40,880 nucleotides of DNA, taken from Lysobacteraceae bacterium. Lineage in GTDB: Bacteria; Pseudomonadota; Gammaproteobacteria; Xanthomonadales; Xanthomonadaceae. Below the pieces are notes generated by a model. The model made no database searches. It was not told the origin of the DNA and saw only the letters and a list, made by a program, of their open reading frames with translations. Both the position numbers and the translations under genes were made by a program. The stretch covers positions 1-40,880 of the forward strand of contig JANINR010000059.1 in NCBI GenBank assembly GCA_024508915.1. Direction: 5' to 3'. This document shows positions 35,662 through 40,833 of this stretch, piece after piece; the stretch's first letter is position 1, and each line of letters begins with the position of its first letter.

Positions 35662-36540
35662 TCAGGCCAGCAGCAGCGACGACATGCGGCGGCGGTAGCG
35701 GCCGACGAGATCCTCGTCGTCGACCACGCGGAAGGCGTCGATCAACGCCTTGCGCGGCAGTCCGCCGTCGAAGTCGCGGTCGCGGCGCAGCATCTCCAGG
35801 AACTGCTCCAGCCCCGCTTCGGCATCGCCGGAGACGATGCCGCGCACGCCGAGCAGGTGGCGCGCGCGCAGGTCGCCGGGGTTCGACGCGATGGCGGCTT
35901 CCAGCACTTCGCGCGGCGGCGCGTCCTGCAGCAGCGCGGCGAAGCCGAGGCGCGCGCGGGCGCGCACCGCGCGGTCGTCGGTGGCGAGGTTCGCCGGCAG
36001 CGCGTCGAGCAGCTTCTCCGCTTCGTGCGCGCCGCCGGTGGCGAGCAGGGCCAGCGCGAGGTCGAGCTTCAGCGCGTCGTCTTCCGGTGCGGCTTCGACC
36101 GCCTTGCGCAGGCGCATGACTTCGGCGTGCGGATCGACCGGCGCCGCGGGCGCCGCCGCCTCCGCGTCGTCCGCCGGCGCGGCGGCCGGCTCGATGCCGT
36201 GGTGCTTGAGGAATTCGCGCAGCTGGCCTTCGGGGAGCGCACCGGGGAAGCCGTCGACCAGCTGCCCGTCCCTGGCGAGGATCACCGTCGGCACCGAGCG
36301 GATCTGGAAGGCGGCCGCCAGCTGCTGTTCCTTGTCCACGTCGACCTTGGCCAGCTCGAACGCGCCGTGGTACTCGGCCGCGAGCTTCTCGAGGATGGGC
36401 CCGAGGCTCTTGCACGGGCCGCACCAGGTCGCCCAGAAGTCGATCAGCACCGGCACCTGCAGCGAGCGCTGGATGACGTCCGCCTCGAAGCTGTCGGTGG
36501 TGGCGTCGAAGACGTGCGGCCTGGCGGTGTCGGCGGTCAT
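35662..36540 (-). CDS. cnoX: Thioredoxin-TPR chaperone/redox protein (CnoX/YbbN type)
   Basis: This 292-residue protein has an N-terminal thioredoxin domain with the complete active site Trp39-Cys40-Gly-Pro-Cys43 and the cis-proline loop RSVPTVIL. A linker rich in Ala/Pro/Asp (about 118-137) and a TPR-like helical domain follow. CnoX protects unfolding proteins from over-oxidation. E. coli CnoX has lost the first Cys; here CxxC is intact, so the protein may also reduce disulfides. It is divergent from the Xre-family operon. Confidence 0.88.
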   Translation of the reverse strand: MTADTARPHVFDATTDSFEADVIQRSLQVPVLIDFWATWCGPCKSLGPILEKLAAEYHGAFELAKVDVDKEQQLAAAFQIRSVPTVILARDGQLVDGFPGALPEGQLREFLKHHGIEPAAAPADDAEAAAPAAPVDPHAEVMRLRKAVEAAPEDDALKLDLALALLATGGAHEAEKLLDALPANLATDDRAVRARARLGFAALLQDAPPREVLEAAIASNPGDLRARHLLGVRGIVSGDAEAGLEQFLEMLRRDRDFDGGLPRKALIDAFRVVDDEDLVGRYRRRMSSLLLA

Positions 36541-36610
36541 GGCGGGGTCCGGGGGAGGGAGCGTGGTAGATGGTGGCTCGGGCGGGGCAATGCAACGGCC
36601 TCGGGCGAGC

Positions 36611-36632
36611 GATGTAAAAAATACTTGACATC
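36611..36632. promoter_or_regulatory. Dyad operator 1 over the -35 element
   Basis: This imperfect 22-bp inverted repeat begins GATGTAA and ends TGACATC. It overlaps the TTGACA box at 36625-36630. It shares its length and outer half-sites with operator 2; the dyad centres are 32 bp apart, about three helical turns, so two dimers could bind the same DNA face. Confidence 0.6.
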
Positions 36633-36652
36633 GCCACGGACCGATGTAAAGT
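36625..36652 (+). promoter_or_regulatory. Promoter of the Xre-family operon
   Basis: A perfect TTGACA (36625-36630) stands 16 bp before TAAAGT (36647-36652). Both elements lie within the two dyad operators, so a bound repressor would block RNA polymerase. Transcription would begin near 36659, about 27 nt before the upstream ORF. Confidence 0.75.
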
Positions 36653-36664
36653 CTACATTACATC
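36643..36664. promoter_or_regulatory. Dyad operator 2 over the -10 element
   Basis: GATGTAA (36643-36649) and TTACATC (36658-36664) form a perfect inverted pair around 8 bp, and part of the centre is symmetric too (GT and AC). It covers the -10 hexamer and the presumed start point. This is the expected place for an autorepressor site of the small helix-turn-helix protein encoded downstream. Confidence 0.7.
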
Positions 36665-36685
36665 AAGTCCGCTACAGGTGACACC

Positions 36686-36748
36686 ATGCTCGCCCTCTCC
36701 CCACGCAACCGTGTCGCGATCGTGACGGGCGCGGAACGCGTGGCGTAG
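36686..36748 (+). CDS. 20-residue upstream ORF (leader peptide or gene remnant)
   Basis: ATG at 36686 is preceded by AGGTG (36676-36680) at good distance. The ORF encodes 20 residues including [13 protein letters not shown] and stops at 36748, 4 bp before the regulator ATG. The regulator has no ribosome site of its own apart from this ORF, so its translation may depend on it. VAIVTGA resembles the start of the nucleotide-binding motif of short-chain dehydrogenases, so a decayed gene start is also possible. Too short to test by similarity alone. Confidence 0.5.
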
Positions 36749-36752
36749 CCGC

Positions 36753-36971
36753 ATGGCCGCGACCGCCGTCACCAACGAGATCCGCCGCCTGCGCTTCGAG
36801 CGCGGCGAAATGACGCAGCAGGCGCTCGCCGATGCCTGCGGCGTGACCCGGCAGACCATCATCGCGCTCGAGGCGGGTCGGTACGCGCCTTCGCTGGAAC
36901 TCGCGTTCCGCATCGCCGACGCCCTGGGCGCGCGCATCGAAGAAGTCTTTCAGTGGAGCAGGAAACAATGA
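36753..36971 (+). CDS. Xre/Cro-CI family transcriptional regulator
   Basis: This 72-residue protein is nearly all one helix-turn-helix domain: [51 protein letters not shown], with the recognition helix around [10 protein letters not shown] (residues about 31-40). It resembles the small regulators found before DUF2178-like membrane genes in many bacteria. It is probably a dimer that represses its own promoter at the twin GATGTAA dyads. Its stop overlaps the next start (ATGA). Confidence 0.92.
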
Positions 36972-37423
36972 ACGCCAATGTGGGCATGAACATCGGAAGG
37001 CGCGAGCTGGTGGCCTGGCTGGGCTTCCTCGGCTCGATCGCAGGAAGCGCGTACCTGGCCTGGCTGCTGTTCTGGCACTGGCCCGCCAATGCCGCCGCCC
37101 TCGGCAGCGACCCGTCGGTCGGTGCACCGGTGTCGACCGGGCTCACCGTGTACGTGCTCGTCGTCGCCGCGCTGCAGAACTGGCGGCGCCGGAGCGAGCC
37201 GATGGAGGACGAACGCGACCGCGCCATCGACGGCGTCGCGGCGAAGCACGCGTTCATCGCGCTGGCGCTGCTCAACGTGGTCGCCGGCGTCGGCATGCAT
37301 TCGGAATCCGCCCGGCTGGCCGCGTTCGGCGGCGAATGGCTGCGACTGTTCCTGCTGTGGATGGTGCTGGCCTCGGTCGCCGTGTTCGCCGGCTCGCAGC
37401 TCTACCGGTACCGGCGCGGATGA
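36968..37423 (+). CDS. Four-helix membrane protein with DERD motif (DUF2178-like)
   Basis: This 151-residue protein has hydrophobic segments at about 15-36, 56-72, 93-112 and 125-146. Between helices 2 and 3 lies [20 protein letters not shown], the acidic DERD...A..AF pattern of DUF2178-type proteins that accompany Xre regulators. The function is unknown. The ATG at 36968 overlaps the regulator stop and is preceded by AGCAGGAA. A GTG at 36953 in frame would overlap more and is less likely. It is coupled to the next gene by ATGA. Confidence 0.8.
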
Positions 37424-38028
37424 ACCGGCTCGCGCTGCACGCGGGCTGGGTCGCGGGGGCCGTGTTCTTCCTTGCGCTGGCGGGATTCGGCGCGGCGCTC
37501 GCGGGTGGATCGCAGGCATCGTTGCCGGTGGACCTGCTGGGCGCCGGAGGCGTGCCGAACGCGCCGGGCTGGAACGTGCTGGGCTACGCCTTGCCTGGCC
37601 TGCTCGTCGCCGCATTCGCGATCGCGCTGCAACGGCCGCTCGCGACCGCCGGCGTTGGTGTGGCGGGCCGGATCGGCGGCTGGCTGCTGATGTTGTCGGG
37701 CCTCGCGTTCGCGGCGCAGGCGTTCCTGCCGCTCGACCTGCGGCTCCTGGACGGCGCCGCGTCGAAAGCGCACGTCGCGTCGGCCGTGCTGTCGCTGGTG
37801 GCCTGGTTGCCGTCGGCGCTGCTCCTGCCGCTGGCCCTGCGCGGACGGGCGCCGTGGCGCGCGGCCGTCGTGGCCGGCCCCTTGCTCGCCGCCGTGGGCA
37901 TCGCCTGCCTGGCGCTGCCGCCGCACGCCTGGGAGGCCGCGGGCGCGGGCCCCGGCATCGCCCAGCGGCTGGGCCTCGGCGCCCAGTTCGCCTGGCCCGC
38001 GTTGGCGGCTTTTTGTGCGCTGCGGTAG
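37420..38028 (+). CDS. DUF998-like integral membrane protein
   Basis: This 202-residue protein has about six hydrophobic segments (8-28, 48-66, 80-97, 115-135, 141-160, 178-196). PNAPGWNVLGYALPGLLVA near residue 45 and AHVASAVLSLVAWLPSALLLPLAL fit the DUF998 family. No catalytic motif is seen. It is the third gene of the Xre-regulated operon, its start overlapping the previous stop. Its own TAG forms part of a weak -10-like TAGGCT that could serve leuS. Confidence 0.75.
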   Translation: MNRLALHAGWVAGAVFFLALAGFGAALAGGSQASLPVDLLGAGGVPNAPGWNVLGYALPGLLVAAFAIALQRPLATAGVGVAGRIGGWLLMLSGLAFAAQAFLPLDLRLLDGAASKAHVASAVLSLVAWLPSALLLPLALRGRAPWRAAVVAGPLLAAVGIACLALPPHAWEAAGAGPGIAQRLGLGAQFAWPALAAFCALR

Positions 38029-38061
38029 GCTTCCGGGTCCGCTCCCATCCGCAAGCGCATC

Positions 38062-40833
38062 GTGTCCGAAAACACCGCCAGCCCCGTAGTTCCCAACGAG
38101 CCCGCCGCGGGTTACGACCCGGCAACCGTCGAGGCGGCCGCGCAGGGCTACTGGCGCGACACGCGCGCCTACGAGGTGGTCGAGGATCCGTCGCGGCCGA
38201 AGTTCTACTGCCTGTCGATGCTGCCGTACCCGTCCGGCGCGCTGCACGTCGGCCACGTCCGCAACTACACCATCGGCGACGTCATCAGCCGCTACCAGCG
38301 CATGACCGGCAAGAACGTGCTGCAGCCGATGGGCTGGGACGCGTTCGGCCTGCCGGCCGAGAACGCGGCGATCAAGCACCGGACCGCGCCGGCGAAGTGG
38401 ACCTACGCCAACATCGAGCACATGCGCGCGCAGCTGCAGGCGATGGGCTACGCGATCGACTGGACGCGCGAGTTCGCGACCTGCAGCCCCGACTACTACG
38501 TGCACGAGCAGCGCATGTTCGTGCGCCTGATGAAGCAGGGCCTGGCGTACCGCCGCAACGCCGTCGTGAACTGGGACCCGGTCGACCAGACGGTGCTCGC
38601 CAACGAGCAGGTGGTCGACGGCCGCGGCTGGCGCACCGGCGCGATCGTGGAGAAGCGCGAGATCCCGCAGTGGTTCCTGAAGATCACGGACTACGCGCAG
38701 GAACTGCTCAACGGGCTCGACACGCTCGATGGCTGGCCCGAGCCGGTCAAGACGATGCAGCGCAACTGGATCGGGCGCAGCGAGGGCCTGGAGATCGCCT
38801 TCGAGGTCGCCGACGCGCACTTCAACCCCACCGGCGAGCGCGTGACCGTGTTCACCACGCGCCCCGACACGCTGATGGGCGCGACCTTCGTCAGCATCGC
38901 CGGCGAGCACCCGCTCGCGCTGCGCGCTGCGCGGGACAACCCCGCGCTGGCGGCGTTCATCGAGGAGCTGCGCCACGGCGGCGTCTCCGAAGCCGAGCTC
39001 GAAACGCAGGAAAAGCGCGGCATGGACACCGGCGTGCGCGTGCTGCACCCGGTCACCGGCGACGCGATGCCGGTCTACGTCGCGAATTTCGTGCTGATGG
39101 GCTACGGCACCGGCGCAGTCATGGCCGTGCCGGCGCACGACCAGCGCGACTGGGAGTTCGCGCAGGCCTACGGCTTGCCGGTGCGGATGGTGGTGGTGCC
39201 GGGCGAGGTGCGCGATGCGCTCGCCGAACTCGCGCGGCACGTCGGCTCGCACGAGGATGCGATGGCTGCCGCCCTCGGCGAATCCGCGGCGATCGACGCC
39301 TACGACGTGGGGGCCGCCGTGCAGGTGGTGCGCGAATACCAGCGCCGCGTCGAAGAGGAATCGGCGTACACCGGGCGCGGCTGGCTGGTGAATTCCGGCG
39401 AGTTCGACGGGCTCGATTTCGACGCGGCCTTCGCGGCGGTCGCCACCGCGCTGGAAACCTCCGGTGCCGGCAGCCGCAAGGTCAACTTCCGCCTGCGCGA
39501 CTGGGGCGTGAGCCGCCAGCGCTACTGGGGCTGCCCGATCCCGGTCGTGTACTGCGCGCAATGCGGGGCGGTGCCGGTGCCGGAGGACCAGCTGCCGGTG
39601 GTGTTGCCGGAGGACGTGGAGTTCTCCGGCGTGAAGTCGCCGATCAAGGCCGATCCGGAGTGGCGCAAGACCGCGTGCCCGGAATGCGGCGGCGCGGCCG
39701 AGCGCGAGACCGACACCTTCGACACGTTCATGGAGTCGAGCTGGTACTACGCGCGCTACACCTCGCCGGGCGCCTCCACGCAGGTGGACCAGCGCGCCGA
39801 CCACTGGCTGCCGGTCGACCAGTACATCGGCGGCATCGAGCACGCGATCCTGCACCTGCTGTACTTCCGCTTCTACCACAAGCTCATGCGCGACCAGGGG
39901 CTGGTGAAGAGCGACGAGCCGGCCACGCGCCTGCTCACCCAGGGCATGGTCGTGGCCGAGACCTTCTACCGCGAAGGCGAGGGCGGCCGGCGCGAATGGA
40001 TCAACCCGGCCGACGTCGAGGTGCGCCGCGACCCCCATGGCCACGTGTCCGGCGCGGTCCTGAAGGCCGACGGCAAGCCCGTGGGCATCGGCGGCATCGA
40101 GAAGATGTCGAAGTCCAAGAACAACGGCGTCGACCCGCAGGCGATGGTGTCGCGCTACGGCGCCGACACCGTGCGCCTGTTCTCGATGTTCGCCGCGCCG
40201 CCCGAACAGTCGCTCGAGTGGAGCGAGGCCGGCGTCGAGGGCATGGCGCGCTTCCTGCGCCGCTTCTGGCGCGAAGTCGCGACGCATGCGGCGCAGCCCG
40301 ACCATCCCGCGGTCGATCCGGCGTCGCTGGACGCGGCGCAGAAGACGCTGCGCCGCCAGCTGCACGAGACGATCCAGAAGGTGGGCGACGATTACGGCCG
40401 CCGCCACAGCTTCAACACCGCGATCGCGGCGCTGATGGAACTGCTCAACCACGTGTCGCGCTTCGCCGACCCGTCCGACCAGGGGCGCGCGGTGCGGCAC
40501 GAGGCGCTGGAGGCGATGGTGCTGCTGCTGAACCCGGTCACGCCGCACGTGTCGCATGCGCTGTGGCAGGTGCTGGGCCATCCGGAGACGCTGCTGGAGG
40601 ACGTGCCGTTCCCGCGCGCGGACCCGGCGGCGCTGGCGCGCGACAGCGTCACCATCGCGGTGCAGGTCAACGGCAAGCTGCGCGGCACCATCGAGGCGGC
40701 GCCCGGCGCGGCGCGCGAGGCGGTGGAAGCCGCGGCGCTGTCGGAACCCGGCGTGGCCCGGTTCCTGGAGGGCCAGTCGGTGCGCAAGGTGATCGTCGTC
40801 CCCGGCAAGATCGTCAACATCGTGGCGGGGTGA
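38062..40833 (+). CDS. leuS: Leucyl-tRNA synthetase
   Basis: This 923-residue class Ia synthetase charges tRNA-Leu. It has the HIGH-type motif in [15 protein letters not shown], the CP1 editing domain with [12 protein letters not shown] and its catalytic Asp in [19 protein letters not shown], and KMSKS in [16 protein letters not shown]. Compared from memory with E. coli LeuRS (860 residues) there is extra sequence at about 379-432. A C4 zinc-type site, Cys498-x-x-Cys501 and Cys539-x-x-Cys542, is absent in E. coli but known in other LeuRS. The GTG start gives MSENTAS; no strong ribosome site is seen. Confidence 0.97.

Follow-up and report, generated by a model that had tools for sequence, protein, structure and literature searches.

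According to one account (PMC3709268), CylR1 of Enterococcus faecalis is a small suspected membrane protein that is encoded beside the regulator CylR2, is needed for induction, and has no phosphorelay elements. How CylR1 signals to CylR2 was stated as not understood in that account and in a second one (PMC5454873). In Bacillus subtilis, SdpI sequesters the autorepressor SdpR, which is encoded in the same operon, at the membrane, as described in PMC1626106.

The operon described here lies in a window of 40,880 nucleotides (the whole stretch of DNA that was analysed) from a Lysobacteraceae bacterium, and the draft genome carrying it is 2.39 Mb in size and 99.8% complete. The locus consists of predicted operators, a promoter, a 20-codon ORF, an Xre regulator and the genes of two membrane proteins, one with a DERD motif (DUF2178) and one DUF998-like (Table 1). 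Taken as a whole, it can be read with moderate confidence as an autorepressed CylR2-type operon with the DERD protein as sensor, the DUF998-like protein as output, and the 20-codon ORF as a stub. The first-pass annotation had described the dyads, the promoter, the ORF and the three genes, and its coordinates and description held, apart from the detail that all genes were joined by ATGA. This overlap was present at the Xre-DUF2178 and DUF2178-DUF998 junctions; between the TAG of the 20-codon ORF and the ATG of Xre there were four bases, and therefore no ATGA junction.

Table 1. Positions of the operon features and neighbouring genes in the 40,880-nucleotide window.
Feature	Position	Strand	Remarks
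Thioredoxin-TPR gene, divergent	35662-36540	-	Upstream neighbour of the operon
Predicted operator O1, 22-bp dyad GATGTAA-N8-TTGACATC	36611-36632	+	1 mismatch to the symmetric consensus; right arm holds the -35 box
-35 box TTGACA	36625-36630	+	Same hexamer in 100/104 twin-dyad loci
Predicted operator O2, 22-bp dyad GATGTAA-N8-TTACATC	36643-36664	+	0 mismatches; holds the -10 box
-10 box TAAAGT	36647-36652	+	TA[AT]NNT in 96/104 twin-dyad loci
Proposed degenerate operator O3, core GT-N12-AC	36664-36685	+	Spans the ribosome site; ends just before the first start codon
20-codon ORF	36686-36748	+	Probable stub of a lost first gene; TAG stop
Xre regulator, 72 residues, CylR2-type	36753-36971	+	HTH_3 (Pfam) 1e-13; CylR2 (1utx) 1e-9
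DUF2178 (DERD) membrane protein, four helices	36968-37423	+	DERD at residues 81-84; Pfam, model, likeness to L118
DUF998-like membrane protein	37420-38028	+	27.7 bits; full-length alignment with relatives; AlphaFold2 pLDDT 95.6
leuS, GTG start	38062-40833		Downstream neighbour; motifs read by eye

Residues 8-69 of the Xre protein aligned to residues 4-64 of CylR2 (PDB 1utx, E = 1e-9), and its match to PDB 9k3w had a value of 2.8e-13. As a 72-aa HTH_3 protein homologous to CylR2, it belongs to the CylR2 type. Its scores against the NCBIfam Y4mF antitoxin (41.8 bits) and the PADLOC Control_protein model (35.8 bits) could suggest a regulator akin to antitoxins or to restriction control proteins, belonging to a mobile or defence unit. 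However, the Y4mF score was far under the cut-off of 71.65, the PADLOC matches were all generic HTH matches, of which Control_protein was the best, the operon has no toxin, nuclease or methylase gene, and the same divergent thioredoxin-TPR gene adjoins xre in most of 80 relatives. This origin was thus considered highly improbable.

The two GATGTAA-type dyads reported over a TTGACA-16-TAAAGT promoter were both present, with their starts 32 bp apart. A scan of the window allowing 3 mismatches gave 3 dyad matches against 0.12 expected; across the whole draft genome, O1 and O2 alone had 0-1 mismatch, and the next best site had 2. TTGACA and TAAAGT formed the only promoter-like pair in 36400-38200 (shuffles: mean 0.0, sd 0.2). 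The T at position 10 of the O2 dyad was 94% conserved and its mirror position was not, as expected if it belongs to the -10 box and not to the dyad. A repressor bound at O1 and O2 would cover both promoter boxes, and the conserved dyads over -35 and -10 would, if Xre does bind them, match the CylR2 type, in which the site lies over the repressed promoter.

Relatives were sampled with Xre as the query, and 80 named loci were chosen among the best of 172. A spacing test was made on 86 sequences (the 80 loci, five loci of the genus and the window) with spacings of 20-44 bp allowed, and the best dyad pair stood at exactly 32 bp in 74 of them. The operator profile contained 72 segments, after removal of too-short and identical ones and of L115 and L116, whose operator segments equalled those of L011 and L015; it reached up to 2 bits per base in the dyad arms and 0.02-0.31 in the 10-bp O1-O2 spacer. 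Covariation of the arms was rejected as added evidence of binding, since their complementarity equalled the expectation from column composition.

An enlarged set of 221 loci gave 153 distinct loci after 68 with identical Xre DNA had been dropped. A 32-bp pair with at most 8 mismatches in 28 positions was present in 104 of these 153 loci, which share kinship and are not independent events; none of 387 shuffled regions reached 8 mismatches, and the best shuffle had 11. The first-pass annotation had named a lack of such conservation upstream of orthologous regulators as grounds for refutation, and the dyads passed this test. By Xre identity, twin dyads were found in 51/54 loci at 80% or more, 50/75 at 70-80%, 3/15 at 60-70%, and 0/9 below 60%. 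Among the 129 loci with an identity of at least 70%, 101 had no more than 8 mismatches and 93 no more than 6; five loci in this range had dyads spaced by 34 bp. In L031, both arms of O2 (2805-2826) were changed (AAAGTAA..TTACTTT), with the dyad retained.

Self-repression had been proposed by the first-pass annotation and is supported by the conserved 32-bp dyad pair over -35 and -10 and by the lack of any other strong site in the genome. Judged from these sequence patterns, autorepression of the operon by Xre is very likely.

The third dyad, O3, had been overlooked in the earlier reading. Its core stood exactly 21 bp beyond O2 in 94 of the 104 twin-dyad loci, against a mean of 0.06 at each of 47 other offsets, and its outer positions showed poor symmetry. 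O3 is thus a proposed element: a weak operator, or a leader sequence that serves some other function. Since 21 bp corresponds to two helical turns and 32 bp to three, we infer an arrangement that would fit dimers on one face of the DNA. Dyad pairs 21 bp apart were also found in some distant loci, for example L095 and L106, where two full dyads stand at the O2-O3 distance, as if O3 were a decayed copy. A conserved three-site operator was not described in the literature that could be searched, where no paper treating CylR2 together with homologues, operators or membrane proteins was found.

The region had been called AT-rich at the promoter and unlike its surroundings. The first part was confirmed (48% G+C over 36600-36690), and the second did not extend to the three genes, with 68-76% G+C in a window of 70%. 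The low G+C is confined to the promoter, and therefore nothing marks the operon genes as foreign. Downstream, leuS is often 1-3 kb away from xre in relatives. In the window, no plus-strand terminator was found in the 33 bases between the DUF998 stop and the leuS GTG (38029-38061), and the operon might therefore read into leuS, an essential gene. Upstream (36535-36610 in the window), relatives share two blocks, ACAAG at 3-7 bases ahead of O1 and another around -31 to -24; on the minus strand they resemble -35 and -10 boxes with a 17-bp spacing that could serve the divergent thioredoxin-TPR gene. The window has CGAG where relatives have CAAG in the block before O1. Xre on O1 might touch the thioredoxin-TPR promoter as well.

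The DUF2178 protein of the window passed the curated cut-off of PF09946 (23.7 against 22.8 bits). Most DERD relatives tested were below this cut-off or had no match, so that PF09946 covers the DERD group poorly; in 14 control genomes it matched in two archaea only. DUF2178 was not mentioned in the literature searched. The model of the protein showed four helices (pLDDT 85) and had no Foldseek match in the PDB at E ≤ 0.001; the best VIA hit, a designed protein, had a Z of 8.5, a value that for helical bundles may reflect a common arrangement only, and the lack of a match does not mean a new fold. The DERD motif was invariant in 29/29 aligned proteins. In the window it lies between helices 2 and 3 with arginines adjacent, and by the positive-inside rule this loop is therefore probably cytoplasmic.

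The first-pass annotation had stated that Xre occurs beside DUF2178-like membrane proteins in other bacteria, and the survey bore this out as a pattern. In 131 of 152 loci (L212, which has no start, was left out), a DERD ORF ended close to the start of Xre (-30 to +11 bases), with a four-base ATGA-type overlap in 86, and such ORFs extended to distant loci with 55-65% Xre identity. L112-L114 and a few other loci had a hydrophobic ORF without DERD at this place, and L046 and L121 had three DERD genes in tandem before Xre. When ORFs were filtered by length (110-240 residues), hydrophobicity and presence of ERD, 128 loci had a DERD gene before Xre, and of the 153 loci the window was the only one found with it after Xre. 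The closest relative of its DUF2178 protein (48% identical) lies directly before Xre in the congener L118. The full arrangement of the operon had been regarded as poorly described; the order DERD, Xre, DUF998 is a common layout of the family, from which the window departs by the place of DUF2178 after Xre.

The DUF998-like protein gave a weak full-length match to PF06197 (27.7 bits, below the curated cut-off of 30), and its orthologue in L036 scored 42.9 bits, above the cut-off; the window protein is therefore related to DUF998 without being a formal member. Its relatives, the closest of which is in L118, align over the full length. A homologue was present in at least 89 of 153 loci, in most cases overlapping the 3' end of xre; the true count may be higher, since the loci extend over only about 1.5 kb of flank and many are short. 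The AlphaFold2 model was that of a confident helical membrane protein (pLDDT 95.6), and it had no Foldseek match in the PDB at E ≤ 0.001; the best VIA hit was LYCHOS (Z 7.9), and here too a missing match does not mean a new fold. Structure clustering linked DUF998 to Frag1/DRAM/Sfk1-like six-helix proteins (PMC10584675), and PMC9018018 implicates yeast Sfk1 in the asymmetry of phospholipids at the plasma membrane. By analogy with Sfk1, a role of the DUF998 protein in membrane lipid order may be guessed. None of the literature found that mentions DUF998 appears to concern an Xre-DUF2178-DUF998 operon. In L015 (3215-4105), L005 and L042, a protein of about 300 residues directly follows Xre; a GxSxG serine-hydrolase-like motif was read by eye in that of L015/L116.

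The 20-codon ORF had been taken as a leader, a view that needed revision after comparison with the relatives, in which the same start opens a membrane gene. In 63 loci, the first gene (gene 1) starts -5 to +4 bases from the O3 end (30 of the 63 at +1, as the ORF of the window does). Its product is a hydrophobic, DERD-bearing protein of about 210 residues, and an ATGA overlap generally couples the gene to Xre. The first 13 residues of the ORF are like gene-1 N-termini. Over residues 2-13, the best match was L005; 27 of 20,000 shuffles, and none of 86 control ORFs, scored as high. When the score was averaged over all 63 gene-1 starts, the signal was weaker, with 692 of 20,000 shuffles doing as well. 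The likeness of the ORF's tail to gene-1 tails was not above chance (240 of 300 shuffles as good), and a retained gene-1 tail in the window was rejected. From its start position and N-terminal likeness, the tail being silent, the ORF is most likely the stub of a lost membrane gene of about 210 residues.

Gene 1 was reduced or gone in eight loci besides the window, giving nine reduced loci in all. Reduced ORFs that end by ATGA or GTGA at the Xre start had 7 codons in L148, 36 in L031, 45 in L076, 80 in L073, and, from an ATG near O3, 36 in L081. L154 has a short ORF with a GTG or TTG start only and is ambiguous; in L055 and L074, Xre occupies the place of gene 1. The ORF ends of L148 and L031 resemble gene-1 ends (WRDxR, by eye). 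In a tree of the thioredoxin-TPR protein, made by a quick method, the reduced state required 8 changes, of which at least 6 fell on well supported branches, and such counts do not separate gain from loss; the reduced label was no more clustered than in shuffles, 125 of 500 of which gave as low a count.

A true regulatory leader peptide, acting by attenuation or peptide sensing, would account for the ribosome site of the 20-codon ORF, for its end four bases before Xre, and for the ORFs of L031, L073, L076, L081 and L148 that overlap the Xre start. It was nevertheless regarded as improbable: a full membrane gene occupies the same position in 63 loci, the N-terminal likeness to gene 1 argues against it, and the reduced ORFs vary in length and sequence, so that there is no conserved peptide. 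To return to the stub reading, the median ribosome-site energy was -2.7 kcal/mol for Xre against -6.0 kcal/mol for gene 1, and in the window it was -3.3 kcal/mol for Xre and -3.8 kcal/mol for the stub. Because the Xre sites are weak, the short ORF was likely kept for translational coupling, which we infer to be the reason for its retention; L154, L055 and L081 differ in that Xre has a good ribosome site of its own. A tandem duplication followed by two deletions could, as a speculation, explain both the stub and the changed place of the DERD gene.

A profile search (A1) for a DERD protein, with L073 and L076 outside the whole-genome search, found one in 0 of 6 genomes with a lost gene 1 and in 6 of 6 other genomes. 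The genomes without a detectable DERD protein keep Xre, DUF998 and recognisable dyads; the DERD protein is therefore not indispensable, and its role as sensor is the weakest step of the proposed mechanism. Either DUF998 can take over in these genomes or the DERD protein modulates rather than enables the response. In eight reduced loci, 29 of 32 highly conserved Xre positions were intact in all, and the other three were changed in one locus each, so that Xre is still constrained there.

These loci are also what a plain autorepressor of a membrane-stress operon would predict, with the signal received by Xre or by DUF998 and the DERD protein as one regulated product among others instead of the sensor. 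All nine reduced loci keep a DUF998 homologue, six of their genomes show no DERD protein, and the Xre positions are largely unchanged. On the other hand, the DERD gene before Xre (131/152) is far commoner than DUF998 (at least 89/153) and extends to distant loci, and CylR2, the nearest solved relative but one, works with a membrane partner. A plain autorepressor was thus held possible but doubtful. The steady presence of a DERD protein beside Xre is explained most economically by an action on Xre in the manner of CylR1 on CylR2 or of SdpI on SdpR; the chances that the DERD protein is the sensor were considered evenly balanced.

In the proposed mechanism, Xre dimers would bind O1 and O2, three helical turns apart, cover -35 and -10, and keep RNA polymerase off; Xre would probably also sit on O3, two turns further on. 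The repressed operon would make only little Xre of its own. The DERD (DUF2178) protein, normally made just before Xre and here just after, would sense a change of the membrane, and its cytoplasmic DERD loop would loosen Xre from the DNA. Derepression would then yield more membrane protein, above all the DUF998 protein of the Frag1/Sfk1 type, plausibly adjusting the membrane; that DUF998 is the main output was given an equal chance of being right or wrong. The 20-codon ORF would be a stub that may still serve to deliver ribosomes to Xre, whose own start is weak. An immunity function of the SdpR/SdpI kind, in which the two membrane proteins would shield the cell from a membrane-active peptide coming from outside and, in its presence, tether the repressor to the membrane, has the same elements, since an autorepressor and a polytopic membrane protein with membrane sequestration make up the SdpRI scheme of PMC1626106. 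However, the PADLOC scan of the two membrane proteins gave no match, and the neighbours are housekeeping genes; such a function was considered unlikely. Envelope stress or defence, roles raised by the first-pass annotation, found neither support nor contradiction, the PADLOC scan of all three proteins giving generic HTH matches for Xre alone.

The family gives more than 100 natural variants of a pair comparable to CylR1/CylR2, with conserved operators and including partner-less genomes, so that the relay becomes open to direct test in harmless bacteria, and the operon is a testable setting for the barely described DUF2178 and DUF998. The stub would illustrate, in concrete detail, how a membrane gene can shrink to a short coupling ORF. 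In a wider reading, offered tentatively and with some doubt, the ends of a lost sensor gene would repeatedly have been kept as short coupling ORFs, membrane genes becoming translational leaders in independent lineages, and the DERD/DUF2178 protein and CylR2-type Xre would be a widespread non-phosphorelay pair controlling a Frag1/Sfk1-like membrane protein, with the membrane partner signalling directly to a repressor on a fixed 32 + 21 bp three-site operator.

Compared with known systems, the locus is closest to CylR1/CylR2 of the E. faecalis cytolysin operon, whose CylR2 is homologous to Xre, and here too the operon encodes a membrane partner, the four-helix DUF2178 protein, joined to the regulator by ATGA. 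CylR1/CylR2 control a divergent toxin operon, whereas the predicted targets here are the membrane proteins and Xre themselves, and the operon is found in Gammaproteobacteria, beside thioredoxin-TPR and leuS genes. Restriction-modification control proteins have a linked nuclease or methylase, in contrast to the two membrane proteins that are the operon partners here, and the regulator is not of that class. SdpR is an ArsR-type regulator, whereas that of the window belongs to HTH_3 and so is not SdpR-type; the likeness to SdpI/SdpR, a system with another gene order and another signal peptide, is one of working only. A repressor with a membrane partner is a known kind of system, and the Xre-DUF2178-DUF998 arrangement is a variant of it.
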